A stretch of DNA of 49,531 bases. Source: a virus. Each line of letters starts with the position of its first letter. Position 1 is the stretch's first letter. The notes under the pieces were generated by a model that saw nothing but the letters and a program-made list of their open reading frames with translations, was not told the DNA's origin and searched no databases. Both the position numbers and the translations under genes were made by a program. The stretch lies in IMG/VR virus record IMGVR_UViG_3300044998_001094, positions 1 to 49,531 of that record. One strand, given 5' to 3'. Below, piece after piece: positions 3,033-25,408 of the stretch.

Positions 3033-4397
3033 TTAATCCAAGGCTTTTTTGAGTTCCGCCTTCAGGTCCAGCACCGGGTCCGCGCCGTCGTCCACGCCGG
3101 AACCGCAATCGCCACGCCGGCCGCCACCCGTCGGACCCGACCCGCGCAACTCCGCCAGCGCCGCCTCCAACTCCTGCACCCGCCGCGTCAACAACGCCGC
3201 CTTGCGCGCCATCCTCGGAAACGCCGCCGCCCGGTTCCGCACCTGCGCGTGCAACAACACCCGCTGCTGCGGCGTCAATGCCGCGTTCCGGTCAAACATC
3301 ACGTCCACCAGCTTGTAGCCGTCCTCCAACAACCGGTTCCCCTCCTCGTCCTCCGGGTCCGGCGCAAACCACTCCGGCCGCTTCGCCCGCAAATCCTCGT
3401 TCGCCCTGCGCCACATCGCATCCACCGCCTCCCGCTGCTGCGCCAGCCGCGCCGCCTCCTCCCGCTCCCGCTGCTCCCACGACGCCCGCTCCTGCCGCTC
3501 CGCCGCCACCCGCACCCGCTCCAACCGCTGCAACTCGTTCAAGTGCGAAATCACCAGCGGAGCCTGCTCCTCCCCAAACAAACGCCGCACCTCCATCAAC
3601 GCCCGCCCCTTGGGCAAACGATACAACGCCACAAAATCATCCCACGTCGCCTGCCGCTCCCCCGCCTCGTCGTCCATCACCACCAACTGCTCAATGTCCG
3701 ACCGCGCAAACTCCGCCGCCTCGTTGAACGGCTTGTGATACTTCTCCACAAACTCCGGCGAAAACTCCCGGCGCGCCGCCCGTAACTCGCTCTGCGCCGC
3801 CCGCAACTCCTCCTCCGCCTTCGCCAGCTTCTCCGCCAGCACCGTCGTGTCCTTCCCCCGCGCCTCCGCCTCCGCCAGCTTGCGCTCATACTCCGCCACC
3901 CGCGCCATCGCCTCGTCCCGCTCCGCCTTCGTCCGCTCATAACTCTCCCGCAACTCCTTGGGCGTCCAACCACCACGCCCACCCTCACCACCACGACCAG
4001 AACCCTTGCCCGCCGACAACCTGTCCCCAGCACCCTCCCCGGAAGATTTGTCCGAGGAAGGTTTGTCCGGGGAAGGTTTGTCTGAGGAGGATTTATCCCC
4101 CTTGTCCACGGCGGATTTTTCCCCGGAAACCTTGTCCCCTTTATCCCCCGCCCCGCCAAACTCACGCTCCAACCCGCCGGTCAAACGCGCGTCCAAAGCG
4201 TCAAAATCCAAATCCACACCCCCACCGGAATCCACGGAACGAACATCCCCGGAACGAACATCCCCGGACGTGGACTGCGACGCATCCCCCGGCCCACCAG
4301 CCCCGGCACCACCGCCGGAAGAACCCACGGCATTCTCAGCCGCCACTCCGCCAGACGCCACTCCAGAACCATCCGTGCTCATGTTTTTTTTGCTCAT
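3033..4397 (-). CDS. Scaffold-like capsid assembly protein, 454 residues
   Basis: The N-terminal third is low-complexity Ser/Gly/Asp/Lys with repeated DKPSSDKSS-like units. A long charged coiled coil follows (ERDEAMARVAEYERKLAEAE onwards), then a conserved-looking SPEFVEKYHKPFNEA segment and a Lys-rich end (LKAELKKALD). This disordered, coiled and basic layout is typical of phage scaffolding proteins, which hold the capsid shell during assembly and are then lost. It is far from the capsid gene and on the other strand, which is unusual. Start at 4397 is preferred over an upstream TTG; two 13-bp AT-rich repeats lie just upstream. An internal virion protein is the alternative. Confidence 0.65.
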   Translation of the reverse strand: MSKKNMSTDGSGVASGGVAAENAVGSSGGGAGAGGPGDASQSTSGDVRSGDVRSVDSGGGVDLDFDALDARLTGGLEREFGGAGDKGDKVSGEKSAVDKGDKSSSDKPSPDKPSSDKSSGEGAGDRLSAGKGSGRGGEGGRGGWTPKELRESYERTKAERDEAMARVAEYERKLAEAEARGKDTTVLAEKLAKAEEELRAAQSELRAARREFSPEFVEKYHKPFNEAAEFARSDIEQLVVMDDEAGERQATWDDFVALYRLPKGRALMEVRRLFGEEQAPLVISHLNELQRLERVRVAAERQERASWEQREREEAARLAQQREAVDAMWRRANEDLRAKRPEWFAPDPEDEEGNRLLEDGYKLVDVMFDRNAALTPQQRVLLHAQVRNRAAAFPRMARKAALLTRRVQELEAALAELRGSGPTGGGRRGDCGSGVDDGADPVLDLKAELKKALD

Positions 4398-4404
4398 AAT
4401 CAAA

Positions 4405-4840: not shown

Positions 4841-5158
4841 TCATGCCGCCGCCTCATGCCGCCGCAACATCCGCCCGCCGCGCGCCCAATACTCCACCCG
4901 CAACCCCAGCGGCTCCAGCATCCGGTGCGGCTTCACCCCGCCCCAGCCCGGCTCCCCCTCCCGCACCCGCAACGCCTCCCGCAACAACGGCAACACCCGC
5001 GCCCCGCCATACACCACAAAACGACCACCCCCGCCACCCTCCTCCCGCATCCGCTCCATCAACGAGTTGACCACCAGCCCCGCCGAGGCCGCCGCCGCAC
5101 CCTCACCAAGCTCAAACAGGTCCTCGCCAAAAAAATGCAACGCCACCATCCGCCTCAC
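4841..5158 (-). CDS. Hypothetical protein, about 105 residues
   Basis: A GTG at 5158 follows GGGGAGGATTTT, a good ribosome site; an ATG at 5149 is the alternative. The frame reads RRMVALHFFGEDLFELGEG, then an Ala-rich helix, a Gly-rich turn and an Arg-rich C-terminus. It follows the GT2 gene by 40 bp in the same operon. No known family is recognised. Confidence 0.6.
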   Translation of the reverse strand: MRRMVALHFFGEDLFELGEGAAAASAGLVVNSLMERMREEGGGGGRFVVYGGARVLPLLREALRVREGEPGWGGVKPHRMLEPLGLRVEYWARGGRMLRRHEAAA

Positions 5159-5198
5159 AAAATCCTCCCCGCCACCAAGACGCCACCTGTTTCCATGC

Positions 5199-6116
5199 TC
5201 AAACAAAATCCTCCAGCGGTTGACCGTCAAAAATGTCCCGCTCCGGCCCCCACGGCCCGGGCCAGCCGCCACCGGCCAGCACCAGTTCACGCAACCGCAC
5301 CAAATCAAACCCGTGCCGCGCCCGCCGAACCCCGCGCAGCAACCCGAGCACGTGATGACTCTTGTCGTTCGGCGACACCCCCTTGTCCTCCCGCCGCATC
5401 ACCGGCAGGGATTTCCCCGGCGTCCGGTCCTGCCACAACCCCATCCCGCTGTCGTAAATCAACGGCAGCCCGTTGTTCGCCAGCATCAACCCGAAAATCG
5501 AATCCTCCATGCCCAAACCGTCGCAGGTCTCGTCAAACCCGTTGACCGCCAGACAAAACTCCAAGGGCATGGCCAGATTGCAACCATAGGTCCACTCGCC
5601 GGGAGCCGGAACCCGCACCGGATGCACCCGGCCCTGTCCCTCCAGCCACAAACGACGGCTGTCCTGCCCGCTCAACACTCCCCCGTCCACCACCACCCCG
5701 CCCTCCACCCGCATCCCCACCCGCTTCTCATAAGACCCGGCCACCGCATAACCACCCTCCATCGCCGCGCGCACCGCGTCCAGCCAGCCCGGAAGCAAAA
5801 CACAACGGTCGTCAATGAACGCAATCCACGGCGTCCGACACAACGCAATGCCCGTGTTGCGCGCGTTGGCCGCCGCCCACCAGTCGCACTTGGTCCGGCG
5901 CGCCGGCCCCTGCCACACCGTCGGCTTGGGCACCACCCGCAACACGTCCCCCGGCCAGCCGGGCGTCGCCAGCGAACGCCGGTCCGCCTGCAAGTCCACC
6001 ACCGTCAGAAAAATCCGGTCGCCCGCCACCATCTGCCGGGCCAGCGACCCGGTAAACCAGCCAAGCTCCGGCTCGTCCCGGCTGGTGATGTAAACAACCG
6101 TCAACGAATGCTTCAT
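5199..6116 (-). CDS. Family 2 glycosyltransferase (GT-A fold), 305 residues
   Basis: The N-terminus (LTVVYITSRDEP) opens a Rossmann-type nucleotide-sugar fold. ARNTGIALCRTPWIAFIDD holds the region around the metal-binding acidic motif, and GLGMEDSIFG supplies the ED motif that commonly carries the catalytic base. These are hallmarks of inverting GT2 enzymes, which move a sugar from a nucleotide donor. No membrane segment is seen, so it is probably cytoplasmic. Its ATG overlaps the stop of the DUF6165 gene, and a methyltransferase and a GT9-GH130 fusion are in the same operon, so it likely acts in a glycan pathway. Substrate is unknown. Confidence 0.85.
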   Translation of the reverse strand: MKHSLTVVYITSRDEPELGWFTGSLARQMVAGDRIFLTVVDLQADRRSLATPGWPGDVLRVVPKPTVWQGPARRTKCDWWAAANARNTGIALCRTPWIAFIDDRCVLLPGWLDAVRAAMEGGYAVAGSYEKRVGMRVEGGVVVDGGVLSGQDSRRLWLEGQGRVHPVRVPAPGEWTYGCNLAMPLEFCLAVNGFDETCDGLGMEDSIFGLMLANNGLPLIYDSGMGLWQDRTPGKSLPVMRREDKGVSPNDKSHHVLGLLRGVRRARHGFDLVRLRELVLAGGGWPGPWGPERDIFDGQPLEDFV

Positions 6117-6574
6117 ACCCCCGCCCCCGTCCCGCCGCCCGCCACCCCGCCGCCCCCGGGACGGTAGTGCTTCACGTCCACACCCGGCCCGCCCCCCACC
6201 AGCGCGTTGAGCCGCTGCTTGGTTTCCGAGCGGGCGTCGTTGGTGCGCGCAATCTGCACCGCCAGCCAGCCCGGCTCCCCCATTTCATCCGCCGACGGCA
6301 TCGCCGAACAACGCGACATCCACCTTCGCAGTTGCTCCTCCAGCACCCAGAGCCGGTGGTTGATGTAGGCCAGCGCGGAAAAAAGCTCGGCCGCCCCCGC
6401 AACCCCCTTCACCTGCGACTCCCAGAGGCGCTCCAGATGCTCCCGCGCCCGCACCACGTCCGGCAACGCCGGACTGTCCGCCGGAAGAAACTTTTCCTTG
6501 AGTTGCAAAATGGTCAGACGGTCCACCAGTTCGCCCGCCGTGATGTTGATTTCAAATTTCATGACCGGAAACAT
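6113..6574 (-). CDS. DUF6165-like protein, 153 residues
   Basis: The start region FEINITAGELVDRLTILQLK matches what I know of the DUF6165 signature, and the helical remainder fits too. DUF6165 proteins commonly sit beside glycosyltransferases, but their biochemical role is not settled. The tail is Gly-rich and low complexity. The stop overlaps the GT2 start, so the two are coupled. An alternative ATG is at 6562; 6574 is kept because AGAGGG lies about 8 bases upstream. Confidence 0.75.
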   Translation of the reverse strand: MFPVMKFEINITAGELVDRLTILQLKEKFLPADSPALPDVVRAREHLERLWESQVKGVAGAAELFSALAYINHRLWVLEEQLRRWMSRCSAMPSADEMGEPGWLAVQIARTNDARSETKQRLNALVGGGPGVDVKHYRPGGGGVAGGGTGAGV

Positions 6575-7222
6575 TCACCGCACCCTCTGGTACACCGCCC
6601 CGGTGCCCAGTGGATACAAAAACTTGAACCCCAGTTCAAACAACCGCCGCTCCGCCCCGCGCACCGCGCCGCCGCTCCAGTCCAAATCGTCCAGCACCGC
6701 CAGACCGCCCACCCGCACCGCCGGCCCGAAACGGTTCACGTCCGCAATCGCCTCCGGCCCGTGGTTGCCGTCACAGTGGAAAATGTCAATCTCCAGCGGA
6801 GGCACCGTGTCCCGCGAACGCCGCCGGACCACCTCCACGTAAGGCGACAACCCCTCACGGTTGACCGCCTCCATGAACTGCCGGTACACCGCCTCGTGGT
6901 CCAGTTGCGACCACCAGCGCGCATTTTCTCCCTCCTGCCCCTCCACACTGGCCTCCGCACTCCACGGGTCAATCCCCATGATGCGCCCCTGCCCAACCTC
7001 GCGCATCGCCAGCGCCATCGGCAACAGGCTCGCCCCGCCAAAAACCCCGATTTCCACCACCCGCCGGGGTCGCAGCGCCAGCACCATCGCCGCCAGCACC
7101 CGCCCGCGCGTGACCTGATGCGGCCACGTGCCGCCGGGCACCGACAACACCAGCCGCTCGACGCGCTCAAACAACGTCGCCAGCCCCCCGTCCGCCGGCC
7201 CCGCCGCCCCGCCGCCACTCAC
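6575..7222 (-). CDS. SAM-dependent methyltransferase, 215 residues
   Basis: RRVVEIGVFGGASLLPMALA is a glycine-rich SAM-binding loop (motif I), followed by GRIMGIDPW (acidic motif II), then IDIFHCDGNH and GLAVLDDLDW, as in the Methyltransf_24 group that often acts on sugars or small molecules. The start is the GTG at 7222, which overlaps the TGA of the preceding HTH gene (GTGA). The same frame stays open upstream but runs inside the HTH gene, so a longer protein is unlikely. Context predicts methylation of a glycan or sugar nucleotide. Confidence 0.8.
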   Translation of the reverse strand: MSGGGAAGPADGGLATLFERVERLVLSVPGGTWPHQVTRGRVLAAMVLALRPRRVVEIGVFGGASLLPMALAMREVGQGRIMGIDPWSAEASVEGQEGENARWWSQLDHEAVYRQFMEAVNREGLSPYVEVVRRRSRDTVPPLEIDIFHCDGNHGPEAIADVNRFGPAVRVGGLAVLDDLDWSGGAVRGAERRLFELGFKFLYPLGTGAVYQRVR

Positions 7223-7479
7223 AGGCTCACCCCCGCCTTCCTGAGACGCAGATAGGACAACAGCGTCATGTTCGCGCTGCCATTCTCGATTTTGCAGAGA
7301 ACCGAGGGCGAAAGGTTCACCCGCTCCGACATCTCCCGCAGCGTCAGCCCCAGCCGCATCCGCTCCTGATAGGCTTTTTCCGCCAGCCCCAGCAACACCC
7401 CGCGCTCCTGTGGCGTGATTTCCACCCGTCCGCGACCACGCCGCAGGCGAAGCCGCCCTGTTTTGATTTTCGATTTCAT
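7219..7479 (-). CDS. XRE-type helix-turn-helix regulator, 86 residues
   Basis: A basic N-terminus (KSKIKTGRLRLRRGRGR) precedes a Cro/C1-type HTH: LTLREMSERVNLSPSVLCKIENG fits helices 2 and 3, with IENG the usual end of the recognition helix. The ATG at 7479 overlaps the stop of the GT9-GH130 gene and its own stop overlaps the methyltransferase start. A regulator inside the glycan operon suggests self-control or control of a late switch. Target sites are unknown. Confidence 0.8.
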   Translation of the reverse strand: MKSKIKTGRLRLRRGRGRVEITPQERGVLLGLAEKAYQERMRLGLTLREMSERVNLSPSVLCKIENGSANMTLLSYLRLRKAGVSL

Positions 7480-9944
7480 ATCTTGAAGCGTGTATAGGAA
7501 ACGCGCGCCAGAGCGCAAGCCGAATCATTCACCCCCAGCGACAAAATCACCCCGCCCAGCGGAGCCTTGGCCGGGTTCGCCCATGTCAGCCCGCCCGGAA
7601 ACACCACCTTCGGCTTGTGATGCGGGCAACTGGCGCGTTCCGTCTCGGTCAGGTCGTCCGCCTCCGAACCGTAAAACAACGGCTGACGGTAAAAGTGCAG
7701 CGGCCGGAAGGGCGGCTCGGATTCCATCAGGGCCAGCCCGCAGTAGTAACGCCGCCGGTGCGGCCTCGGCTCGTTGTCCAGCGTGGAATGAAACACGCGG
7801 AACATCCTGCCGTCCCCCAAGTCCAGCGGCACCGTGCCGCCCTTGGGACAACCAAAGGGCCAGCGCGTCCACCCTTCCAGCGTCAACTGGTCCCCCGCAT
7901 CGTGGTTGATGGTCAGCAGCGACGGGGCCTTGTGCTCCGCCACCACGCGGCCCGAATCGTCAAACTCAACCGTCACCTGCTCGCGCGGGCCTTGTGAATA
8001 AAAGGCGAACAACCGGCCGGACCGCTCGAAAAACACCCAGTTCTTCTCCATCGCCGAGCCGTCGTTGCGGCCGTAATCCGGCCTCCAGACATTGCGCAGC
8101 CGCCACGGCGGGCCGCCCGTCAGTTCGCCCACCCGCACAACGGAACAAAACGGGGCACCCGACACCAGACGGCTGTTGACAAAGGACAGCATCAGGCGGC
8201 CGCGCCACTCGAAGAAACGCGCATCCTCCATCGAATTGAAACCCGGGTCCCCCTCGCACTCCAGCGGAGACACCGAAAGCACGTTGAAGGCGTTGTCCAG
8301 TTCCGCCACGTGCAACGCCGTCGCCGCCCCGGAATGATGCGCCCGGAACACCATCAACAGGGTGTCCCCGCGCCGCCACAGGGTGGGGTTGTAGCCAAAC
8401 CCGCCCAGCGCCGCCCGGCTCAAAATCTTCACCCCGTCGCGCTGCTCGTGCAGCGGCCGGAACAACGGCGGATTCCCCAGTTCCCGCAACGCCTCCACCG
8501 CCAGCCGCTCGTTGTATTCCACCCTCGGCGGCCGCCCGCCCTCCGCAACCTTGGGCGGACGATACAGCCTTTCGCCCAGCCACGGAATATGCACCGCCCC
8601 GTCCCGGCGCAGGTGCTCCATCAAAACCCGGTGCCAGTGGTGGTCGTTGCCCAGAACCAAGTCTGGAATCTCCTTGCGGTGCCGCAGCCACCAGCCTTTC
8701 GTGAAGCAAAAAACATCCACCGCCGGGGAAAACTCCAGCGCCAAGCCGCCGTCCACCACCCGATGCGAGTAGCAGGGCGTGTGATTCAGAATGGCCTTGG
8801 TCGCCGTGCTGTAAAGCGAGACCGGCCCGCGCGTCAGGCATATAATGTCGCGCTCCTCCATGCGCGCGCAGGCGAGATTCAACACGTCCTCCAAAAAAGG
8901 AAGCCGCTGCTTGTCCTTAAAGACCGAGCGCGTGTCCCGGCCCAAGGCCCCAACGTCTATCGGCGAATCCACCCAGATACCCTCGCAGTAGAGCTTGAGC
9001 CACAACGGACGCAACCGGTTGCGCTCCTCGTGGCTGGTCTCGTGGCCCGGATACACGTGAAAGATTCTCGGCATCGTGCCACCAATGGCCACCCTGCGAC
9101 TGATGCAGCCCGGTTGCCCCACCGCGTCCATCCGGTCCAGAAGCTCCACCGCGTGAGCCGGAAACCGGGAATAGCGACACTGAAAAACATGGTTCGGCCG
9201 CCACGGCGAGCCGTTCCACAACAGCGGTTTGTCCTGCGAAATGGCCAGCACCGGAAGCGTCGGCACCGCACGCGCCAGATGCAGCGGCGCGGAGTCCACG
9301 GAAACCAGACAGTGCGCCAGTTCATACAGCCCAATCAGGTCGTAAAGCCGCTCCACCCTGATTTTCGACAGGTCCACCAGCCGGCGCTTGGCCTTGACCC
9401 TCGCCCGCAACAACTCCCACAGCAGTTCGCCATACTCGAACGGAGAGGATTCCGCCGCCGTGTTGACCAGCACAATCTCCAGCCCCTTGCTGCGATTGTA
9501 GGCCAGTTCCCGCAGCAACGGCTTGAACGTGTCGTATTCCCTGTCCCTGTCCCTGCGGTCAAACACCAGCGGCGGGTGCGTTTTCCAGTCTTTGAGCCTG
9601 CCGAAGATGCGCCAAGGCTCCTTGGCAAAGGAATCCGTCAGCGCGTGAGACGCCCCGGACGGAATATAGGTGCAGTCCCGGACATCCTCCTCATTCCCGC
9701 AAACCTGAACACACAGGACATCCTTGGACATCCTGTTGGCCTCGGCCACCGCCCGGCGAATTTCCGTGTGCTCCCCTTGAAACGGCACCACGTCCACGTA
9801 CGAAACACCGTCCAGCAACGGGACATACTTGGACGCCACCATCAGAGCACACCTGCGACCAGCGTCAGCCTCAGCCTTGAGAACCGGGAGGAACAACATC
9901 AAGTCCCCGGCTTTCCCCAGCAAAACGACAAGTTTTTGCTCCAC
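7476..9944 (-). CDS. GT9-like glycosyltransferase fused to a GH130-like propeller, 822 residues
   Basis: Residues 1 to about 270 look like a heptosyltransferase-type GT9 domain: VVLLGKAGDLMLFLPVL matches the N-terminal nucleotide-sugar loop and SVDSAPLHLARA matches the conserved C-terminal acceptor/donor motif. A middle segment (about 290-500) has no clear family. The last 300 residues carry bladed repeats (YNPTLWRRGDTLLMVFRA, EDARFFEWRGRLMLSF, EKNWVFFERSGRLFAFY) as in GH130 mannoside phosphorylases and related beta-propellers. The start is a GTG at 9944. The fusion joins a sugar-adding and a sugar-cleaving or sugar-binding fold; substrate is unknown. The gene heads the glycan operon. Confidence 0.75.
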   Translation of the reverse strand: MEQKLVVLLGKAGDLMLFLPVLKAEADAGRRCALMVASKYVPLLDGVSYVDVVPFQGEHTEIRRAVAEANRMSKDVLCVQVCGNEEDVRDCTYIPSGASHALTDSFAKEPWRIFGRLKDWKTHPPLVFDRRDRDREYDTFKPLLRELAYNRSKGLEIVLVNTAAESSPFEYGELLWELLRARVKAKRRLVDLSKIRVERLYDLIGLYELAHCLVSVDSAPLHLARAVPTLPVLAISQDKPLLWNGSPWRPNHVFQCRYSRFPAHAVELLDRMDAVGQPGCISRRVAIGGTMPRIFHVYPGHETSHEERNRLRPLWLKLYCEGIWVDSPIDVGALGRDTRSVFKDKQRLPFLEDVLNLACARMEERDIICLTRGPVSLYSTATKAILNHTPCYSHRVVDGGLALEFSPAVDVFCFTKGWWLRHRKEIPDLVLGNDHHWHRVLMEHLRRDGAVHIPWLGERLYRPPKVAEGGRPPRVEYNERLAVEALRELGNPPLFRPLHEQRDGVKILSRAALGGFGYNPTLWRRGDTLLMVFRAHHSGAATALHVAELDNAFNVLSVSPLECEGDPGFNSMEDARFFEWRGRLMLSFVNSRLVSGAPFCSVVRVGELTGGPPWRLRNVWRPDYGRNDGSAMEKNWVFFERSGRLFAFYSQGPREQVTVEFDDSGRVVAEHKAPSLLTINHDAGDQLTLEGWTRWPFGCPKGGTVPLDLGDGRMFRVFHSTLDNEPRPHRRRYYCGLALMESEPPFRPLHFYRQPLFYGSEADDLTETERASCPHHKPKVVFPGGLTWANPAKAPLGGVILSLGVNDSACALARVSYTRFKI

Positions 9945-9962
9945 AATTAAACCCGGTTGACG

Positions 9963-10259
9963 TTAAAGGGGCTTGGGTTTCTCCAAGTAGGCGATTATCT
10001 CGGACTCGTCCAACAACCGGACAGGGTGCCCAGAAATCTCAAAAGTGAGACGCTCGCCGGCGTAGGATTCAAACAGGACAACGTGCCCAACCTTTAGCTC
10101 CGTGGATGCTTCTGGACCCAGAGCCACAATTTCCCCCCAGCGCGTCGGGGCCGACCCGGAAGCGGATTCCGGCGAATGAATAATGCTGCTCCCGTGTTCC
10201 TCGGTGAGCGGATACACAAGGATTCGGTTTCCTGTTGGTTTGATGGTCATATCATCCAT
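9963..10259 (-). CDS. groES: GroES-like co-chaperonin
   Basis: TGNRILVYPL, WGEIVALGP, LKVGHVVLF and LDESEIIAYLE match the order and spacing of GroES/Cpn10, including the KVGD-like turn and the C-terminal ESDI-like strand. The length (95-98 residues) is normal. Phage GroES proteins (such as T4 gp31) cap host GroEL to fold the capsid protein. The gene lies next to the divergent capsid operon, which fits that role. Alignment with GroES suggests the true start may be the ATG at 10250. Confidence 0.82.
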   Translation of the reverse strand: MDDMTIKPTGNRILVYPLTEEHGSSIIHSPESASGSAPTRWGEIVALGPEASTELKVGHVVLFESYAGERLTFEISGHPVRLLDESEIIAYLEKPKPL

Positions 10260-10304: not shown

Positions 10305-10640
10305 TCAGAGTCGCTCATGCTTTTTGTCCGGGTTTTCCTCCATGCGGCCCGAAAGGTGTTCCATCGCCGAGCGTCCCGGCGTGTTCCTCATCTGCTCCCA
10401 GTTGACATAGGTTTTCAGCGGCACCCCGAGAATGTAGGCCGCCTCCTTCTGCAATCTGCTCCCACGCCACGCGCGCAGCCGGCTGGCAAAGGTATCAGCG
10501 CAAAACTGCCGGAGCATCGCCTCCGCCCGCGTCTTGCTCGCCTTCGCCGTGAAGCGCCTCCACGACTCTTTCAGGGCCTTTGGACTTTTGCCGCTGCTCC
10601 GCGCGTACGCCGTCAGAATCATCTTTGTTCTCTGATTCAT
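10305..10640 (-). CDS. Helix-turn-helix DNA-binding protein, 111 residues
   Basis: The C-terminal half (GSRLQKEAAYILGVPLKTYVNWEQ) fits an HTH of the kind that reads AALLGVSRRTVQNWE in repressors and antitoxins. The N-terminus is basic and helical. The gene is divergent from the capsid operon and first in the leftward block, so it is well placed to control the 10641-10907 intergenic region. Upstream, TTGACT and TAGCAA with a 17-bp spacer form a weak promoter. Confidence 0.7.
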   Translation of the reverse strand: MNQRTKMILTAYARSSGKSPKALKESWRRFTAKASKTRAEAMLRQFCADTFASRLRAWRGSRLQKEAAYILGVPLKTYVNWEQMRNTPGRSAMEHLSGRMEENPDKKHERL

Positions 10641-10907: not shown

Positions 10908-12251
10908 ATGGCCTTTTCATTTCAACAGTGTCAGCGGATTAACAACATCCTGTTCCGCCGGACTCCCAACTTCGACAAGCGGCTCGTCAAAGACCGATTC
11001 CCGCAGGACTACACCTACTCCAACATGTACCAGCAGGAGAAGTGGCCCTCGGGGACGGGCACCCAGCATGTCCGTGACCGCGTTCACGTGACCGACCCCA
11101 ACGACGATGGTTGCTGGGACATCGTTTCCATCGGCGGCACCGGCTCCGCCACCGGGTGCGATGCCCTCTGCTCGCCCGGCCGCAAGGTGGTGGGCTTCGG
11201 CTCCACGCGCTACACCTACGAGAAGGCGCATCGGGACTACATGACCCCGCCCATGTGCTTCGACCAGATGCGCGACGTGGAGGAAATCGCCGAACAACTC
11301 GCCGCGCGCATGGAGGGCCTCAAGGAGTTGCCGGACGCCATCGTCTCGGGCTACCTCCGGCTGCGCTCGCTCCAGCTTGCCGATGTTATCCATATCTGCG
11401 GCGCGGACACCCTGACCGTGCCGGTGACTTCCGGCATGTTCACCAACAACTGCACGCGCATCAATCTGGGCGGCACGGGCAATTTGCCCACGTCCAAGCT
11501 GACGTTGCAGTATCTCGACAACCACGCCGAGGACCTGCTCTACAACGGCTACTTCCGCAAGGACTTCATGCCGCAGGGCCTCTACGCCATCACCACCGAC
11601 TTCCAGACGCACCGCGACCTGTGCCAGCAGAACCCGTCGCTTTCCAGCATGTGGGCGCTGCCGGACTTCGACAAGGGCGGCAAGTTCTTCGAGTACGGCA
11701 TGATGCAGAAGGCCGTGGGGAACTGGAAGTTCAAGCTCGACCCCGAACCGATGCGCTTCCAGCATGTCGGCGGCGGGGTGCTGGAGCGGGTGCGCGCCTA
11801 CGAAAACGTGGCCACCACGGTGGGCAAGCGGAAGGAGTTCTCGCAAGCCTACAAGAACGCCCCCTACCAGCTTTACCACGTGTTCAACCGCAACGCCTCG
11901 ACGGTTTTTGTCGGGGACATCACGCCCGTTCACCCCGAATTGAAGTTCAACATGGCCCGCTCGCTGCTTGGTCAGTGGTCTTGGAAGTCGCCCCACTACT
12001 TCACGTTCACCGACCCGAACAACGGCACGACCTGCGCCTACCAGAACGACAAGGGCAACTACGGCTACCTGCTCGGCGAGTTTGAACTGGGCATGGTGAC
12101 GGACTACCCCGAAATCGAAATGTGGATTCTCGCTTTGCGCGAACCGCAGGGCATTGTCAACCTGCCCCGCTCGGCGGCCGTGCCCTCCGTGGTCACGCAA
12201 TCGCTGGCTCCGTACAACTCGGGGCTTTGCGCTGGCGACGACGAGGACTAA
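10908..12251 (+). CDS. Major capsid protein candidate, 447 residues
   Basis: The protein starts MAFSFQQCQRINN and has the length and mixed alpha/beta composition of a phage coat protein. It is followed by a strong hairpin, an intrinsic terminator and two small acidic accessory genes, the usual neighbourhood of a coat gene. Features include Gly-rich loops (NLGGTGNLPTS) and an acidic end (CAGDDED). I do not match it to a named family with certainty. An in-frame ATG at 10884 and an open frame to 10689 exist; neither site has a ribosome-binding sequence. Confidence 0.75.
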   Translation: MAFSFQQCQRINNILFRRTPNFDKRLVKDRFPQDYTYSNMYQQEKWPSGTGTQHVRDRVHVTDPNDDGCWDIVSIGGTGSATGCDALCSPGRKVVGFGSTRYTYEKAHRDYMTPPMCFDQMRDVEEIAEQLAARMEGLKELPDAIVSGYLRLRSLQLADVIHICGADTLTVPVTSGMFTNNCTRINLGGTGNLPTSKLTLQYLDNHAEDLLYNGYFRKDFMPQGLYAITTDFQTHRDLCQQNPSLSSMWALPDFDKGGKFFEYGMMQKAVGNWKFKLDPEPMRFQHVGGGVLERVRAYENVATTVGKRKEFSQAYKNAPYQLYHVFNRNASTVFVGDITPVHPELKFNMARSLLGQWSWKSPHYFTFTDPNNGTTCAYQNDKGNYGYLLGEFELGMVTDYPEIEMWILALREPQGIVNLPRSAAVPSVVTQSLAPYNSGLCAGDDED

Positions 12252-17067: not shown

Positions 17068-17654
17068 AAACCACCATCGCCACCATCCTTGCCGCGCTCG
17101 CCATCCTGCTCGTTGGCTGCAACAGCGTTGACAGGTGGGTTCAATCCACCGGCAAGCCTGTCGCCACCAACACCATCCCCGCCGTGATTGACCCCGGCAC
17201 CGGGGCGGTCATCAAGCCCGAGGAGCAGGTCGTCTCCTACGAGCTTCCGCCCGAATATCACAAGGCGATTGAGGACATCAACGCCACGGCGAGGACCTTC
17301 GGGGTCCCCTCCGTGGAGATTATCACCGGGATGATTACCACCCTGCTGGCCGGGGTCTTTGCGTGGAGCAACAACCGGCGCGCCAAGCGAAACCAGACGG
17401 TTTCGGAGATTCTCGTGCAGAACGTGGAGACGGTGAAGAAGCTGGCGCTGCAATACGCGAAGGCGGCCCACCCCAACGACCCGGCGGCGGTGGAGAAGGT
17501 CAACGAATGGATTAACAAGGCGCTGGCCGGCGCTCAGGGCATGGCGGGCGTTGAGGAAATCGTTCGCAGCTTGGTGCTCAAGCACACCGGCAACACGCTG
17601 CTGGAAGTCGGCGTTGACCCGGCGGGAACTGCGGTCAAGCCGCCCAAGCCCTAA
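17064..17654 (+). CDS. Lipoprotein with an internal membrane helix, 196 residues
   Basis: TTIATILAALAILLVGCNS is a lipoprotein signal with lipobox LVGC. Around residues 90-108 VEIITGMITTLLAGVFAW is a membrane helix followed by basic NNRRAKRN. The C-terminal half is helical. A lipid anchor plus a second membrane segment could bridge envelope layers, as spanins do. Its stop overlaps, on the opposite strand, the stop of the portal gene. Confidence 0.7.
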   Translation: MKTTIATILAALAILLVGCNSVDRWVQSTGKPVATNTIPAVIDPGTGAVIKPEEQVVSYELPPEYHKAIEDINATARTFGVPSVEIITGMITTLLAGVFAWSNNRRAKRNQTVSEILVQNVETVKKLALQYAKAAHPNDPAAVEKVNEWINKALAGAQGMAGVEEIVRSLVLKHTGNTLLEVGVDPAGTAVKPPKP

Positions 17655-19936
17655 TCTGATTCTCCTTCACCGGCGGCGGAGGCTGCGGCTTCCGCCGCCA
17701 TTTTCTTTGCCTCAACCTCGGCGGCGGCAAGCGCCAAGCTCCGCTCAATCTCGGCGGCGGCCTCGGCGTCCAGCCGTCGCTGCTCGGCGATGAACTCGGC
17801 TTCCCTGCGGGACTGCTCGGCCTGAAACGCCTCAAGCTGCTGGCGGGCGCGCAACTTGTGCTGCTGCTCGGCAATGACGACCTTCTGTTGCGCCTGAACC
17901 TGAGCGGCTTGGGCCTTGGCCATCGCCGCCGGGTCGGCCTGTGCCTGCTGCGCCTGCTGCTTCTCCGCCAGCCGTTGCCCGAACGCCTTGATTTCGTTGT
18001 CCAGATTCCCAAGGTCATCGGCGAACTGGCGGGCCAAGTCGGCCTGATTCTGGTCTTGGGCGAGCAACTGGATTCGCTCGGCGATAAACTGGGAGGCCGT
18101 GACCATCCCGTGAAGCTCTTGGGGCGTGGGCACGCCTTCCGTGCGGGCAACCGCCGCAATTTTCCCAGCCAGCATCCCAATGAGAACCTCGCAGAGTTCC
18201 GCCGGAGGAACGTTCTCGCGCACCGGCGGAACAACACCCTGAATGAGCGAGCCGAACGCCGCCCCCGCAATTTCCTGCGCGTCGGTAATGTCCCGCTTGG
18301 CGGCCTGCGGGGCAAGGCTCTCCGCCAGCGTCGGGTTGCCAGTCACCGCCTCGGTGAAGATGTGGAGAATCTGCGCCTGAGCCGAAGGCGAATACAGCGG
18401 CCGGTGCTGCATCAGGGCTTGCGCCTGCGTGACCTCCATGACCGGGTTGCCCGAACCGACCGGGACCTCCGGCGTAATCTCCCACCGCTCGGAATTGAGC
18501 CATTCGCGGGGAACACCCTGCCGGCGACATTCGCTCTGGAACTTCTGCACATCGGGGTCCGTGGTGGAGGACAGGCAGAACCGCCGGCAAATCTCCCGGT
18601 AGGCGAAGGTCTCGTACATGAACGCAGTGGAAAGCAGACCGGACATCATCGCGTTGACCTGCGCCACCTTGGCCATCGTCTCCGTCGCCGTCTGCTCCTT
18701 GCTCGTTCCGGTGTCAATTTCCTGCGTGTAACTGGACGACGCCTCTGACATCAGTTGCCGGAGTTGCGCCATCGTGGCCCCGATAAGGTTGGAATCCACC
18801 TGATGCCGCTGCGTTTGCGGCACAATCTCCACGCCGCTGGGCACGACGCACTTGTCAAAAAGCTCAATCTTTTGCGCGCGGTCCCGGTCCACCGGGTCGT
18901 TGACCCGGAACCAGATGTTCATGGAGTCCATCACGTGCTGCACGAGCCGGCAGCGCATCAGGTTGGTCCAGAAACACGGCTCCATGAGCAGGAACCCGAG
19001 CGACCGGACGCTGTGCCACAAAAACGGGGCCTTGTTGTTCAGGTCGCCAAACTGGACGTGGAGAATCCGGTTCAGGTTGGAGGCAAACGGTTTCTCGCTC
19101 TTGTAAATCCACTCACTGCCGGCCTCGTTGATACTTTCATCCGGGACCACCGCCAGATACCACCGGGCGCGCGCCCCGTTCTGGTCGCGGTAAAAGAAGT
19201 TCCACATCGGAATGGTCGGCAGCGCGTCGGAGGAAAAGTAGCCGATGTTCTGCTTGACCAACTCCGCCGCCTTTTCCGGCTGTTCGAGCCAGTCAAAGTC
19301 CGTGACCGCAGACGTGTTTTTGTCGGCATACCTTTTGAGCAGGGCCGCCACCACCTTGCGATTCCAGCCACGGTCGCTGTTCTCGGAAAAAACCTTGGCC
19401 ACCAGTTCGCCGTAGGTGTAGCGCCGGCGCTCGGCAAACCACTCCAGATTGCGGAGGGACACCTCGGTGTCGGTCGGGACCCGCAGGTCCTCAATCGCCA
19501 CGTAACGCGGCAACCACTGGTCCGGCGTGTCCCATATCTGCGCCCCGATGCCGTGCGCCACAACGCAGGAAAACTTGGAGCGGACAACCTCGAAGTACTC
19601 CAAGCTCAACTTCATGGAGCGGTTGATTTGCTGGGTGATGATGCTGCTCCAGTGTGCTTGGTTTCTGGGGTCTGCGGTTGGCAGCGACACGCGGAAAAAC
19701 ATCCCCGGCTTGAGGAAGGCGTTGTAATACTGGCGACGGGCGTGTTGCGCCAGAACCGGAGCCTCGCCCCAGTTGCAGTTCACCTTGATGTTCCACCGCC
19801 GCGCCTCGTCCTCGCTCAACGGCGGCGCGCCGTTGAAAAGCTCATTGACCTTGACGCGGTTAAGCCCGCGAATCCGCTCCACGTCGTCGGAGGCGTGAAT
19901 CGTTTTCAGGACATCCCTCGGGGTTTTGAACGTCAT
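17651..19936 (-). CDS. Portal protein, 761 residues
   Basis: The start at 19936 follows AGAAGGAGAATGT, the clearest ribosome site among the late genes. The body (LKTIHASDDVERIRGLNRVK, QHARRQYYNAFLKPGMFFRV, SSSYTQEIDTGTSKEQTATE) fits a podovirus-type portal, and residues from about 620 on form a long Gln/Ala/Glu coiled coil, a typical portal barrel or tail extension. The ring occupies one capsid vertex and passes DNA during packaging and ejection. TerL and two small genes precede it in the same operon. Its stop codon overlaps the stop of the convergent lipoprotein gene. Confidence 0.85.
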   Translation of the reverse strand: MTFKTPRDVLKTIHASDDVERIRGLNRVKVNELFNGAPPLSEDEARRWNIKVNCNWGEAPVLAQHARRQYYNAFLKPGMFFRVSLPTADPRNQAHWSSIITQQINRSMKLSLEYFEVVRSKFSCVVAHGIGAQIWDTPDQWLPRYVAIEDLRVPTDTEVSLRNLEWFAERRRYTYGELVAKVFSENSDRGWNRKVVAALLKRYADKNTSAVTDFDWLEQPEKAAELVKQNIGYFSSDALPTIPMWNFFYRDQNGARARWYLAVVPDESINEAGSEWIYKSEKPFASNLNRILHVQFGDLNNKAPFLWHSVRSLGFLLMEPCFWTNLMRCRLVQHVMDSMNIWFRVNDPVDRDRAQKIELFDKCVVPSGVEIVPQTQRHQVDSNLIGATMAQLRQLMSEASSSYTQEIDTGTSKEQTATETMAKVAQVNAMMSGLLSTAFMYETFAYREICRRFCLSSTTDPDVQKFQSECRRQGVPREWLNSERWEITPEVPVGSGNPVMEVTQAQALMQHRPLYSPSAQAQILHIFTEAVTGNPTLAESLAPQAAKRDITDAQEIAGAAFGSLIQGVVPPVRENVPPAELCEVLIGMLAGKIAAVARTEGVPTPQELHGMVTASQFIAERIQLLAQDQNQADLARQFADDLGNLDNEIKAFGQRLAEKQQAQQAQADPAAMAKAQAAQVQAQQKVVIAEQQHKLRARQQLEAFQAEQSRREAEFIAEQRRLDAEAAAEIERSLALAAAEVEAKKMAAEAAASAAGEGESD

Positions 19937-20310
19937 ACATTCTCCTTCTTCATCCAGCAATGCTCCGGCAGTCTGGCTCTAACATCATCATTGGTGTGCG
20001 AGCGGATATGTTCTATTGGAACAAACACCTTCAGCGGGAGGCAACACCCGCAGGCCCGGCACATGGAAAGCTGGGTTTCAACGGAAACAGAAAGCCCCAT
20101 TTCGGACTTCTTGGCAAGGTGGCTTTTGATGACCTCGGCGATGGGGTTTGCCGTCACCCTCTCCCACCAGAGCGGCTCGACATTGAGCGGGCAGCCAACG
20201 CACGCCTTGGCACGCTGTTCGGCTTGGGCGTTTGAAACCGGCCGCCCGCCGCTTCCAAGCCACTCCGCAAGGATGGCCGCGCCGGCGGCCAAGTTTGAAA
20301 CCGCGCTCAT
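19933..20310 (-). CDS. Cysteine-cluster (putative metal-binding) protein, 125 residues
   Basis: ATG at 20310 overlaps the upstream stop, and its TGA overlaps the portal ATG. The sequence has CVGCPLN, then CRACGCCLPLK and a final EHCW, a set of six cysteines plus histidine that could bind zinc or an iron-sulfur cluster. It begins MSAVSNLAAGAAILAEW. A small metal-binding protein between TerL and portal may take part in packaging or head completion. Function is inferred from position only. Confidence 0.7.
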   Translation of the reverse strand: MSAVSNLAAGAAILAEWLGSGGRPVSNAQAEQRAKACVGCPLNVEPLWWERVTANPIAEVIKSHLAKKSEMGLSVSVETQLSMCRACGCCLPLKVFVPIEHIRSHTNDDVRARLPEHCWMKKENV

Positions 20311-20620: not shown

Positions 20621-22456
20621 CTAGACGTGTTGAAGCTGGCGGCCCTTAATCATGGACTCGTATTCCTGCTGCCTCTCAAACCAGTAGTCGCTCGGCAGGC
20701 GGACATCAAACGTGGGTTCGCCGGCGCGCTGTATCTTGAACCCCTTTTGCCGGGCCATTTCCAGCGCGGTTACGAGCCAGTCAAACAGGTCGGGTGAGCG
20801 GGCCATCCGGGCGCGGGCCTTGGGGTCATGCTTGGACTCGACGAAAATCTTGTTGGCCTTGGAACGGCCGTATTCGCGGGAACACCCCTCTTTCATCACG
20901 TCCTCGGGCAGCCCGCGCATCTGCCCGCACTCGATGGTGTAACGTGCGGAAAACCAAAGCTCGGTCACAAAGTCGTAGTAGTGCTCGTCGCACCGCTTGT
21001 GCCGGCGATGGTCGCCGTCCTGAATGTAAAGGTCATGCCGCACCGGGCGCGTGGACGGCTTGCCGCCAAACTCGATGGGCTGCGGGGTTCTGGACCCCAT
21101 GATGCGGGCAAAGGCCGCACCGAGCGTCCCTCGCCCGGTGGAGTCGTATCCGATGTTCTCCGGCGGAATCCCCAGCGCCTCGCACTCTTGGCGGACAAAC
21201 TCGGCAATCTGGTCCTCCGGCGTCATGGACACCGAGACCGAGATGGGAACAATCTTGGGAGGGTGAACGCAAAAAATCTGCGTGCCGTCCTTGGAGTCTC
21301 CAAACTCGGCGTAGCCGGCAACGCAGCGGTCGCCGCCGGTGCCGGAGTAGGCCGCGTCCACCGCATAGACCATCGTTCTCGGCGTGCCCAGCCATTCGGG
21401 TGGTTCGTTGGCCCGGTGGATGCGGCACAGGTCCGGCGTGATGACGCGACGGGCCAGAAGCCCGGTTTTCATCACGCCAACGCACTGCGAGTAGTATTCC
21501 GCACTGTCCGGCCCCCAGAATGACAGAACCTCGTCAATCTTCCCCTTGTGAATCAGATACGGGTAGCGCGGCTTCTGGCTTTCCGGGAAGTCAAAGTTCG
21601 GGGAGTCCGTCCCGACAAAGTTGACGGTCTTGCCGTTGAGAAACCTGTTTTTCCAGACCGTTGTTTTTTTCGGCTCGGGCATGGCTCCCCAGCCAATTTC
21701 CGGCTCGGCCGCCTGCCCCAGAGGGTCTCCGGGGTCGTTGGGGTTGCCGATGGGGATGAAGCGGAAAAACTCCTTGCCGCCAAGGTTGGACACCGCCGAC
21801 AGGAAGGTTGGCCCCATCGCTTGGCACTCGTCGGCGATAAACACCAACCGCTTGCTCTTGATGCCGATATACTTGCCAAGCCCGACATACTGGCCGCCCT
21901 GCAAGCAGGGGATGCAGATGATGCCGCGATTGAGAACCTTCCCCTTCTTTTTGCCGGTCGCCTCGTCCGGCGGTGTTTCCGTTGTGATGGCGTGGAGAGA
22001 CTCGAAAATCTGGCCGGGCAGCCACGGGAAGGCGTCGGTGGCCCGGTTGTAAAGTCCCTTCATCGCGCCCCACACGCGAAGCTCCAGCCCGCGAACGTCG
22101 GTTGAGGACACCAAAACGCAGGTCTCCTTCGGCCAGCAAAAGTAGTTCACAAGGCCGAACTTGGAGGCGGTATATGTCTTGGCGGAGTCCTTGGGTCCCA
22201 GCAGGCAGGTCACGGTGTTGTTGACGAACTCCCGGATGGCAAGGTCGCACCACCGATGCCAGTCGTCCTCCGGCCAAAGCAGCATCATCGCCGCCTTGTA
22301 GTGCTCGAACATCCCCAGCCCGTATTCCTTTTCCTCCCTTTTGTTCCGCCAGAACCCCCCGTTGCGAAGCATGAAAAACTCGATGGCCAGCGGGTTGGTT
22401 CCGGCCGGCCATTGCAGCCCGTATTTCTCAAAGGTTGTTGACGAACCGGCCGGCAT
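20621..22456 (-). CDS. terL: Terminase large subunit, 611 residues
   Basis: The ATPase domain has a variant Walker A (GPKDSAKT, residues 87-94, with Ala where Gly is usual) and Walker B LVFIADE (204-210). The RNase H-like nuclease has its first Asp in YAVDAAYSGTGGD (D367), a second in IGYDSTGRG (D438) and a C-terminal acidic segment SPDLFDWL. TerL drives ATP-powered packaging through the portal and cuts the DNA. Length is normal for the family. It is first in the leftward packaging operon, 38 bp from a divergent fibre gene. Confidence 0.93.
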   Translation of the reverse strand: MPAGSSTTFEKYGLQWPAGTNPLAIEFFMLRNGGFWRNKREEKEYGLGMFEHYKAAMMLLWPEDDWHRWCDLAIREFVNNTVTCLLGPKDSAKTYTASKFGLVNYFCWPKETCVLVSSTDVRGLELRVWGAMKGLYNRATDAFPWLPGQIFESLHAITTETPPDEATGKKKGKVLNRGIICIPCLQGGQYVGLGKYIGIKSKRLVFIADECQAMGPTFLSAVSNLGGKEFFRFIPIGNPNDPGDPLGQAAEPEIGWGAMPEPKKTTVWKNRFLNGKTVNFVGTDSPNFDFPESQKPRYPYLIHKGKIDEVLSFWGPDSAEYYSQCVGVMKTGLLARRVITPDLCRIHRANEPPEWLGTPRTMVYAVDAAYSGTGGDRCVAGYAEFGDSKDGTQIFCVHPPKIVPISVSVSMTPEDQIAEFVRQECEALGIPPENIGYDSTGRGTLGAAFARIMGSRTPQPIEFGGKPSTRPVRHDLYIQDGDHRRHKRCDEHYYDFVTELWFSARYTIECGQMRGLPEDVMKEGCSREYGRSKANKIFVESKHDPKARARMARSPDLFDWLVTALEMARQKGFKIQRAGEPTFDVRLPSDYWFERQQEYESMIKGRQLQHV

Positions 22457-23389: not shown

Positions 23390-25408
23390 ATGGAATTGAC
23401 CGCAAGCCTTGGTCCGTTCGACGCCGGCGTAAATGCCGGCGTTTCTCCGCTGATTTTGCCGGACAACCAGCTTGCTTCTGCGACCAACGCCACGGTGCGC
23501 GGCACCTATGTTCGCCAGCGGCCGTGTTTTCGCAGAATCGCCATCAATTCCAGTGACGGCGCGATAAAGCAGGCCGCCACCAAGGCGTATTTTCAGGGCG
23601 CAACCTACTTTGCGCCCGACAACCAGCCCGAGTGTCTGGTCGCCGCCATCGGCGGCAGGCTTTTCCGGTTTGTTCCCTCCGATTTTTCCGCCGATGTCTC
23701 CGAGCACACGGTGGCCGGAGACCCAAACCCGGCCGACCGGCCGCAGGCGTGGCTTTGGCAGGCCGAAAAGTGGGTCATCTGGAACGACGGCCTGAGTCGC
23801 CCGGTGTTTTTTGACGGCACGGTGTCGTTTCGCTCCAACTGGAACACGCCGCTGTCGTTTTCCACCGCCACGGCGACCAACCCCCTCGTGGTTCCGGCGA
23901 TAGGCTCAACGACCGTGGCCACACCAACCTTTGCCGATACTTCAAACATGGAGGAGGGGGACATCCTCACCTTTCAGGGCATCGGCCAGTTTCTAGTGCA
24001 ATCGGTTGACAGCCCAACCACGGCAACACTGGTCAACGTCAACGCCTCACCGACCGGGAAAACCATTCCTGTCGGCACGATTGTGACATGGCAGCACATT
24101 GGCGAGCAGTTGCCCCCGGGACGGATGGGCACCTACGGCTTGGGGCGCAACTGGGTTTCGCTGGTGGACGGCAAGCAGTTCATCGCGTCCGACTTGGTGG
24201 GAGGCTCGTCCGGCACCATCGCCGAGGGGTTCCGTGACGCCGTGCTTTACGTCACGGAGAACAGCTATCTGGCGGGGGGCGGCAACTTCACGGTTCCGGG
24301 GTCGGTCGGCGACATTCAGGCGATGCGTTTCACCGCAACGCTGGACGCCTCTCTCGGGCAGGGTCCCTTGCAGGTGTTCACCTACAACACCGTGTTCTCC
24401 TGCAACGCCCCGGTGGACCGCGCTTCTTGGCAGGATTTGGTCAACCCGATACTCACCGAGTCCCTGATTGCCAGCGGTGCCGTGTCCCAAAACGCCACCG
24501 TGAACGTCAACGGGGACCTGACGTTTCGCTCGGTTGACGGATTGCGCTCGCTGATTCTGGCGCGCCGGGAGTTCTCCACTTGGGGAAACACCCCCATCTC
24601 CCGCGAAGTGCAACCGCTGCTGGACCGGGACGAGCCTTCCGCGCTGTCGTGGGCGTCGGCCATCGTTTTCGACAACCGCCTTCTGGTGACGGCATCGCCC
24701 TCGCAGCACGAGCTTGGCGTGTATTTCCGGGCCATCGTCCCGCTAAACTTCGATGCCCTCTCCTCGCTCCGGGGAAAGGCCCCGGCGGTCTATGATTCAC
24801 TGGCTTGGAGCGGCCTCAACGTCTTGCAGCTTGTCACCGGCAATTTCAACCGCAAGCCAAGGGCGTTCGCGTTCACGCTCAACACCACCACCAGCGAGAT
24901 TGAGCTTTACGAAATCCTCACCACCGATGCGGCCGACTACGACAACGACAACAGCGAAAACCCGGTGTCCGTTGTCTGGACCTTGGAGACCCCGGCCATG
25001 TTCCGCTACGCCAAGGATGACCCGCGCAGCGAGGCTTACAAGCGACTGAGCGACGGCGAGATTTTTGTGGACCAACTGAAGGGCGAGGTTGTTTTTCAAG
25101 CCTTCTGGCGGCCCGACCAGTGGCCGTGTTGGATTCCTTGGCATCACTGGAAGGAGTGCGCCGCGCCCGGTGACGACGGAGCCACCCGGCCGCAGTTTCG
25201 TCCGCGCATGGGTCTCGGTGAGCCGCCCTCGCTGCCTTGCGACGAAACGAACAACCGGCCGCTGCGCGAGGGTTACACGTTTCAGTTCAAGCTCATCATC
25301 ACCGGCAGGTGCCGGCTGCTGGGAATCCGTCTGAAGGCGGACACCATACCGCAACCGAAATACGCCCGGCCGAACTGCTGCCTGTCGGACAACGCTGGCG
25401 AAACATGA
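23390..25408 (+). CDS. Tail nozzle (tubular protein B-like), 672 residues
   Basis: The protein is almost wholly beta-rich and starts with the pattern GPFDAGVNAGVSPLILPDNQ, typical of podovirus tail nozzle or tubular B proteins that list viral attachment blades. The bladed repeats (WLWQAEKWVIWNDGLSRPVF; GTYGLGRNWVSLVDGKQFIA) suggest a propeller. It would form the distal tail tube together with the adaptor at 27232. The Cys-rich C-terminus (ARPNCCLSDNAGET) overlaps the next gene by ATGA. Confidence 0.78.
   Translation: MELTASLGPFDAGVNAGVSPLILPDNQLASATNATVRGTYVRQRPCFRRIAINSSDGAIKQAATKAYFQGATYFAPDNQPECLVAAIGGRLFRFVPSDFSADVSEHTVAGDPNPADRPQAWLWQAEKWVIWNDGLSRPVFFDGTVSFRSNWNTPLSFSTATATNPLVVPAIGSTTVATPTFADTSNMEEGDILTFQGIGQFLVQSVDSPTTATLVNVNASPTGKTIPVGTIVTWQHIGEQLPPGRMGTYGLGRNWVSLVDGKQFIASDLVGGSSGTIAEGFRDAVLYVTENSYLAGGGNFTVPGSVGDIQAMRFTATLDASLGQGPLQVFTYNTVFSCNAPVDRASWQDLVNPILTESLIASGAVSQNATVNVNGDLTFRSVDGLRSLILARREFSTWGNTPISREVQPLLDRDEPSALSWASAIVFDNRLLVTASPSQHELGVYFRAIVPLNFDALSSLRGKAPAVYDSLAWSGLNVLQLVTGNFNRKPRAFAFTLNTTTSEIELYEILTTDAADYDNDNSENPVSVVWTLETPAMFRYAKDDPRSEAYKRLSDGEIFVDQLKGEVVFQAFWRPDQWPCWIPWHHWKECAAPGDDGATRPQFRPRMGLGEPPSLPCDETNNRPLREGYTFQFKLIITGRCRLLGIRLKADTIPQPKYARPNCCLSDNAGET

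Follow-up and report, generated by a model that had tools for sequence, protein, structure and literature searches.

A conserved cassette of glycan enzymes in the head gene block of uncultured tailed phages and its possible role in decorating the virion

Introduction

To our knowledge, glycosylation of the virion has been documented in only a few phages. In the form in which Freeman et al. (2023) is cited in PMC11256854 and PMC12619734, transferases encoded by mycobacteriophage Che8 and its relatives glycosylate capsid and tail-tube subunits, and the glycosylation genes of the related phage Maravista are described as lying close to the genome's 3' end (PMC11256854). This is the nearest known phenomenon to the one proposed here; the likeness lies in the phage-encoded transferases and, by prediction, in their virion target.

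Here we analyze a cassette of glycan enzymes found in a single IMG/VR virus record, IMGVR_UViG_3300044998_001094 (49,531 bases; the whole of this stretch is hereinafter the window), and in its relatives, a clade of uncultured tailed phages of approximately 50-58 kb. On balance, it appears probable that this is a late cassette that forms part of the head block of the clade and adds a methylated glycan of mannoside type to a protein of the virion.

Results and Discussion

Layout of the cassette

Read along the minus strand from position 10259 to position 5199, GroES comes first and the GT2 glycosyltransferase last, with an 822-aa fusion enzyme, an HTH gene, a methyltransferase and a short protein following one another between them; the operon proper, from the fusion to GT2, occupies window positions 5199-9944 on the minus strand. 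The genes of this region, including the small gene that bounds it, are:

5199-6116, minus strand: GT2-type (GT-A) glycosyltransferase with a beta4GalT/chondroitin-synthase-like C-terminal ED motif (PF00535, E 5e-6, above the cut-off)
6113-6574, minus strand: small protein with an N-terminal DUF6165-like motif, coupled to GT2 (PF19662, E 0.067, below the cut-off)
6575-7222, minus strand: class I SAM methyltransferase, 215 aa, GTG start at 7222 (Methyltransf_24, PF13578, E 2e-15)
7219-7479, minus strand: small XRE-type HTH protein, 86 aa, ATG start at 7479 (HTH_3, E 2e-5)
7476-9944, minus strand: fusion enzyme, 822 aa, GT9-like domain, middle domain and GH130-type propeller (AF2 model, fold matches, Pfam matches of homologues, hhalign)
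9963-10259, minus strand: GroES-like cochaperonin, 98 aa (Pfam Cpn10, E 3e-9)
10305-10640, minus strand: small conserved protein at the boundary between the cassette and the major capsid protein gene, HTH-like in some homologues (homologues in the same place in 31 loci)

Four-base overlaps at the fusion/HTH (ATGA, 7479-7476), HTH/methyltransferase (GTGA, 7222-7219) and DUF6165-like/GT2 (ATGA, 6116-6113) junctions, together with the abutting TGA stop and ATG start between the methyltransferase and DUF6165-like genes (6575/6574), make the five genes from the fusion to GT2 look translationally coupled; the GroES gene lies 18 bases upstream of the fusion gene. The arrangement given in the initial annotation, namely a GT9-GH130 fusion, a methyltransferase and GT2 in one coupled operon, with a small HTH gene in the middle and with GroES upstream, is thus borne out, the GT9 part less firmly, by these minus-strand genes and their start/stop overlaps. 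The gene that it labeled DUF6165 is present as well, but the family assignment is weak: the match covers 25 residues, scores 13.4 bits against a Pfam cut-off of 27 and is found in none of the relatives, so that the label is tentative. Our literature search returned no paper on DUF6165. The HTH protein showed no conservation in the relatives.

The head-gene setting

The cassette is surrounded by the following genes:

3033-4403, minus strand: scaffold-like head protein, 456 aa (so named for its place in the locus, its many charged residues and its conservation; homologues next to the major capsid protein or portal gene in 42 loci)
10908-12251, plus strand: N4-like major capsid protein of HK97 fold, in divergent orientation to the cassette (AF2 model; Foldseek)
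17651-19960, minus strand: probable portal, 769 aa (position next to TerL; homologues in 23 loci)
20621-22456, minus strand: terminase large subunit (Walker-type and nuclease motifs visible in the sequence)

The product of 10908-12251 is, by structure prediction, an HK97-fold major capsid protein, the model of which matches the phage N4 capsid (Foldseek E 6.6e-12, Z 16.2). One member of set A16, which holds a homologue of the terminase, matches phrog_2 (E 4e-6). The search with the probable portal returned no database match and that with the scaffold-like protein no informative one, and both identities are put forward on the basis of position and conservation. With the capsid protein, the terminase and these putative portal and scaffold proteins around the cassette, the region qualifies as the head block.

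Taken all together, the capsids of the clade are too divergent for their alignment to serve as a search query. Two cysteines, at query residues 377 and 442, are invariant among 21 capsid sequences, and the shells might be cross-linked. Elsewhere in the window, a 2471-aa ORF (29921-37336) has no match in Pfam or PHROGs, and the product of 25237-27177, a candidate adhesin or fiber, bears a putative Ig domain (He_PIG) and a putative Laminin_G_3 domain.

The fusion enzyme

The AF2 model of the fusion (mean pLDDT 83) comprises a GT9-like GT-B domain (approximately aa 1-280), an alpha/beta middle domain (approximately 290-480) and a five-bladed GH130-type propeller (approximately 500-822). The top fold matches of the propeller are all GH130 enzymes (best Z 25.8 to 5ay9, rmsd 3.1, 281 residues aligned), and the next are the Leishmania GT108 mannosyltransferases, with Z about 20 (MPT-2, 6q4x: Z 20.8). 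PF04041 (GH130) matches 12 of the 27 fusion homologues (best E 2.6e-17), the window protein alone falling below the Pfam threshold. The model confirms the predicted GH130 fold of the C-terminal part of the fusion.

The subsite -1 residues Asn/Asp/Asp, which were named for GH130 enzymes in PMC4264767 and were aligned here to N28/D98/D287 of Teth514_1789 and to Teth514_1788, are invariant in all 26 phage GH130 proteins compared, and so are the Glu typical of GH130_NC and the Lys, His and Tyr of the neighboring motifs; the catalytic Asp is likewise present in 26 of 26. What has been lost is the HR dyad that follows the N-K-D motif, the His being replaced by Tyr in 23 of the 26 proteins and the Arg being variable (Y-S in the window). 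We take this dyad to be the phosphate-binding pair of the related GH130 phosphorylases. Its loss disfavors phosphorylase activity, given that phosphorylases need phosphate-binding residues (PMC8950772), and the sequence motifs suggest that the phage enzyme is likelier a mannosidase or a mannosyltransferase. The specificity for mannose is predicted from structural homology at 12-17% identity and from the conserved residues.

The assignment of the N-terminal half as GT9-like is weaker and was made by sequence comparison, the fold search with the whole fusion being filled by GH130 matches. In Pfam, the E-value is 0.054 for the window protein and 2.6e-4 for the best homologue; in hhalign, the probability is 90% against the E. 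coli heptosyltransferases WaaF/C/Q/U, over only 50 N-terminal columns, and 0.1% for the GT4/KDO-transferase control. For the middle domain (about 170 aa), sequence search gave no solved relative and the comparison with GT2 no link.

In a search of BFVD with the fusion (7476-9944), the nearest viral models, whichever domain matches, are proteins of uncultured Caudovirales and of Pithovirus-like and other giant viruses, some of the latter bearing the names of sugar enzymes; these model-based matches hint that GH130-type propellers could be used more widely in viral glycan synthesis. Our literature search returned no paper joining GH130, GT108, mannosyltransferase and glycosyltransferase.

The methyltransferase, GT2 and solubility of the enzymes

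In the methyltransferase, the SAM-binding E-I-G-V-x-G-G region is conserved, and the SAM motif is kept together with the D/H residues in 23 homologues. The best solved relatives are 6g7d/6g80/6h40 (E 3e-9), a family that we take to be MeT1, a mannoside 1-O-methyltransferase. This function of MeT1 is described in PMC9883506, and the cassette enzyme probably belongs to the same family. GT2 shows weak similarity to chondroitin synthase, and in an alignment of 23 homologues its DD motif is invariant and its ED motif largely conserved. The initial annotation would have been contradicted by a lack of catalytic residues in the enzymes; on alignment, these residues proved intact in GH130, the methyltransferase and GT2. 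The two highest hydropathy stretches of the cassette enzymes reach 1.7-1.8 over 19 residues and fall in apparent Rossmann-type strands, so the enzymes look soluble.

Conservation and exchange of the cassette among relatives

Scans with the fusion, the capsid protein, GT2 and a GT9-GH130 profile yielded 35 further viral contigs, and about 30 IMG/VR contigs carry core genes for GT9, GH130, the methyltransferase and GT2. The frequency of the cassette was counted, without the window, on the 19 contigs that the capsid search by itself brought up (two of these, L026 and L027, are near-identical), because loci found by GT2 or the fusion contain those genes by construction. Among these 19 contigs, GT9 is present in 17, GH130 in 15, and the methyltransferase and GT2 in 13 each. 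In 20 of 26 distinct contigs (L009 and L016 counted as one), the core cassette lies between the putative scaffold and capsid genes, in three between portal and scaffold, and in the other three the position is different or could not be assigned. Wherever the scaffold gene is seen, the cassette is on its strand; the orientation of the capsid gene varies. The recurrence of the same position in independent contigs rules out chance.

The content of the cassette varies around this core. In L002 and L047, the methyltransferase and GT2 are replaced by a DegT aminotransferase, a PglD-type acyltransferase and GT25; L005 is devoid of the core genes and holds an FkbM methyltransferase, a DUF6492 protein and GroES in the same locus; in L051, the core cassette is absent within the stretch seen. 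The accessory genes match the FkbM, GT2, GT25, DegT and PglD families as well as HNH endonucleases, and GT11-like fucosyltransferase motifs were recognized by eye in six contigs. The fusions also differ from contig to contig (GT9-GH130, GTx-GH130, GH130-MT and MT-GT2, where MT is the methyltransferase), which supports the view that the enzymes are tied into one pathway.

Likely mobile elements also occur among the cassette genes. Judged by eye, ORFs inserted between them, for example L007:3254-3766, L008:4372-5016, L011:5175-5771 and L020:6351-6854, probably encode homing endonucleases of the HNH, AP2 or another type, and HNH_3 matches 6 of 85 accessory cassette proteins. Two cytosine-methylase-like genes, also judged by eye, were noted inside the cassette interval (L037:1638-2465 and L011:5761-6396; DNA_methylase matches 1 of the 85 proteins). 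Three contigs of 66-75 kb (L019, L023 and L024), two of them with an integrase, carry the cassette methyltransferase and GT2, and no homologue of the clade capsid was detected in the stretches fetched; they suggest that the outer cassette genes move between phage groups.

Searches of 50,697 isolate-phage records with the fusion, GT2, capsid, portal, GH130 and methyltransferase found no relatives, and in PHROGs the GH130 and GT2 proteins are essentially unrepresented. The composition of the cassette, described at the outset as unusual for a phage, is absent from the isolates, yet within this uncultured clade it is the usual one.

Pairwise divergence was compared by rank correlation with that of the capsid, the coefficient being 0.93 for the portal, 0.88 for the scaffold, 0.84 for GH130, 0.75 for GT9, 0.65 for the methyltransferase and 0.32 for GT2 (500 permutations, so that small p-values are coarse). 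GH130 thus follows the capsid nearly as closely as the scaffold does. These values suggest that the core of GT9 and GH130 is passed on together with the capsid and that the genes for the outer steps are exchanged more freely.

Proposed function and alternatives

Under the scenario that we consider probable, the cassette would be expressed late, alongside the head proteins. The soluble cytoplasmic GT9 and GT2, with the variable additional transferases, would use nucleotide sugars of the host to assemble a short glycan on a protein of the virion, the most likely acceptor being the neighboring capsid protein; the GH130 propeller would make or edit a beta-mannoside linkage and the methyltransferase would cap a hydroxyl. 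Exchange of the methyltransferase, GT2, GT11-like, GT25, FkbM and DegT/PglD genes would give rise to particles with different glycan coats, which might shield the virion or benefit attachment.

The initial annotation had envisaged a methylated sugar for the virion or, alternatively, a change of the host surface. Of these, the virion is the better supported target, itself a prediction, on account of the location of the cassette in the head block and on the scaffold strand, its partial co-divergence with the capsid and the intact catalytic residues. Counting against it are the moderate tracking of the capsid by GT2 and the methyltransferase, the weak GT9 and middle-domain assignments, and modular acquisition, which could also have brought the cassette next to the head genes. 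The accompanying idea that the enzymes build and trim the sugar is uncertain in its second part: the GH130 enzyme could equally build beta-mannosides, in the manner of GT108. In a more specific and rather speculative version, which we consider somewhat unlikely as a whole, the propeller is a mannosyltransferase and not a degrading enzyme, the vertically inherited core makes a methylated beta-mannoside glycan on the capsid, and the outer genes are swapped for surface diversity, as giant viruses do.

Modification of the host envelope, in which altered LPS or capsule would block superinfection or the adsorption of progeny to debris, draws on the action of GT9 relatives (WaaF/WaaC) and GT25 on LPS and on the serotype-conversion genes known in temperate phages (PMC12619734). 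However, an integrase is absent from the window and from 31 of the 36 records (which may be fragments), there is no GtrA- or flippase-type gene among the best-matched accessory families, the enzymes look soluble, and the genes to which the cassette is coupled are those of the late head block, not of lysogeny; altogether, a change of the host surface against superinfection gained no positive support, and we regard this explanation as unlikely. A catabolic GH130, breaking down host mannan as a phosphorylase or mannosidase for food or receptor exposure and having its neighbors by coincidence, would agree with the GH130 phosphorylases being the closest solved folds of the propeller, but it is improbable in view of the lost HR dyad, the fusion of GH130 to GT9, GTx or the methyltransferase in different phages, and its embedding in a transferase operon; nor was an export signal noticed. 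Glycosylation of modified bases in the phage DNA is very improbable: such phage glycosyltransferases are well known, as cited in PMC12619734, but thymidylate-synthase-type hydroxymethylases were found in none of 25 records, with positive search controls, and the genes around the cassette serve the head rather than replication. A TET/JBP search gave no match, but its control was empty as well, which makes this negative uninformative.

GroES requires separate consideration. T4 gp31 is the precedent of a phage cochaperonin for capsid folding. Cpn10 passes the cut-off in 8 of the 36 records, the window included, and in these the gene lies beside the scaffold or the cassette; GroEL is encoded in none of the 25 records tested, and the GroES sequences are weakly similar across the clade. 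By analogy, GroES more likely aids capsid folding together with host GroEL than takes part in glycan synthesis. That the whole region is one glycan machine, with GroES folding the glycan enzymes, could be argued from its adjoining the cassette in several contigs; yet 28 of the 36 records, the majority of them with the cassette, lack a Pfam Cpn10 match, GroEL is not encoded in the records tested, and the gp31 precedent concerns the capsid, which leaves this possibility highly improbable. The link between GroES and the glycan cluster made originally is accordingly replaced here by the better fitting capsid role. In L005, a 188-aa ORF (7250-7816) consists of two tandem GroES-like domains, with two separate Cpn10 matches.

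With regard to the host, a prophage search of GTDB genomes detected no clade capsid. The GT2 search of these genomes pointed to a single contig of 6.4 kb, from an Opitutaceae MAG, that carries methyltransferase, FkbM-like, GT25, GT2 and GroES-like genes; there was no capsid match in this MAG and no close match in 386 other genomes of its phylum. The assignment of so short a contig to a bin counts for little, and the case for Opitutaceae as the host is weak.

Comparison with known systems

If decoration of the virion is indeed the function of the cassette, glycan coats would be handed down within a phage lineage instead of being picked up now and then, the clade would offer a natural set of capsid glycotypes for study, and a GH130-type enzyme, with none like it among the 50,697 isolate-phage records, would be placed in phage biosynthesis. 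Glycosylation of phage virions as such is already known; what would be new is the GH130-type enzyme and the fixation of the cassette in the head block.

The GroES-like protein resembles the T4 gp31-type cochaperonins in being encoded beside head genes without GroEL. Compared with the Teth514_1788/1789 enzymes of GH130_NC, which are beta-mannoside phosphorylases/mannosidases, the phage propeller has the same five blades, subsite -1 Asn/Asp/Asp and Glu (PMC4264767), but the HR dyad is replaced, transferase domains are fused to it and the operon is viral. The dual mannosyltransferase-phosphorylases of Leishmania GT108 (MPT-2, 6q4x) share the propeller fold, which would fit a synthetic role of the phage enzyme; unlike it, they are eukaryotic and act in beta-1,2-mannan storage. 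The mycobacterial methylmannose polysaccharide cluster (MeT1, MmpH, pMeT3 and ManT; PMC9883506) similarly brings together a methyltransferase, a mannosidase and a mannosyltransferase, the mannose-related roles being predictions in the phage; it differs in its hydrolase and transferase families, in its product, a free cytosolic polysaccharide, and in its location in a cellular genome. Finally, compared with Che8 and Maravista, the present cassette is situated inside the head block, includes GH130 and a methyltransferase, and belongs to an unrelated, uncultured clade.
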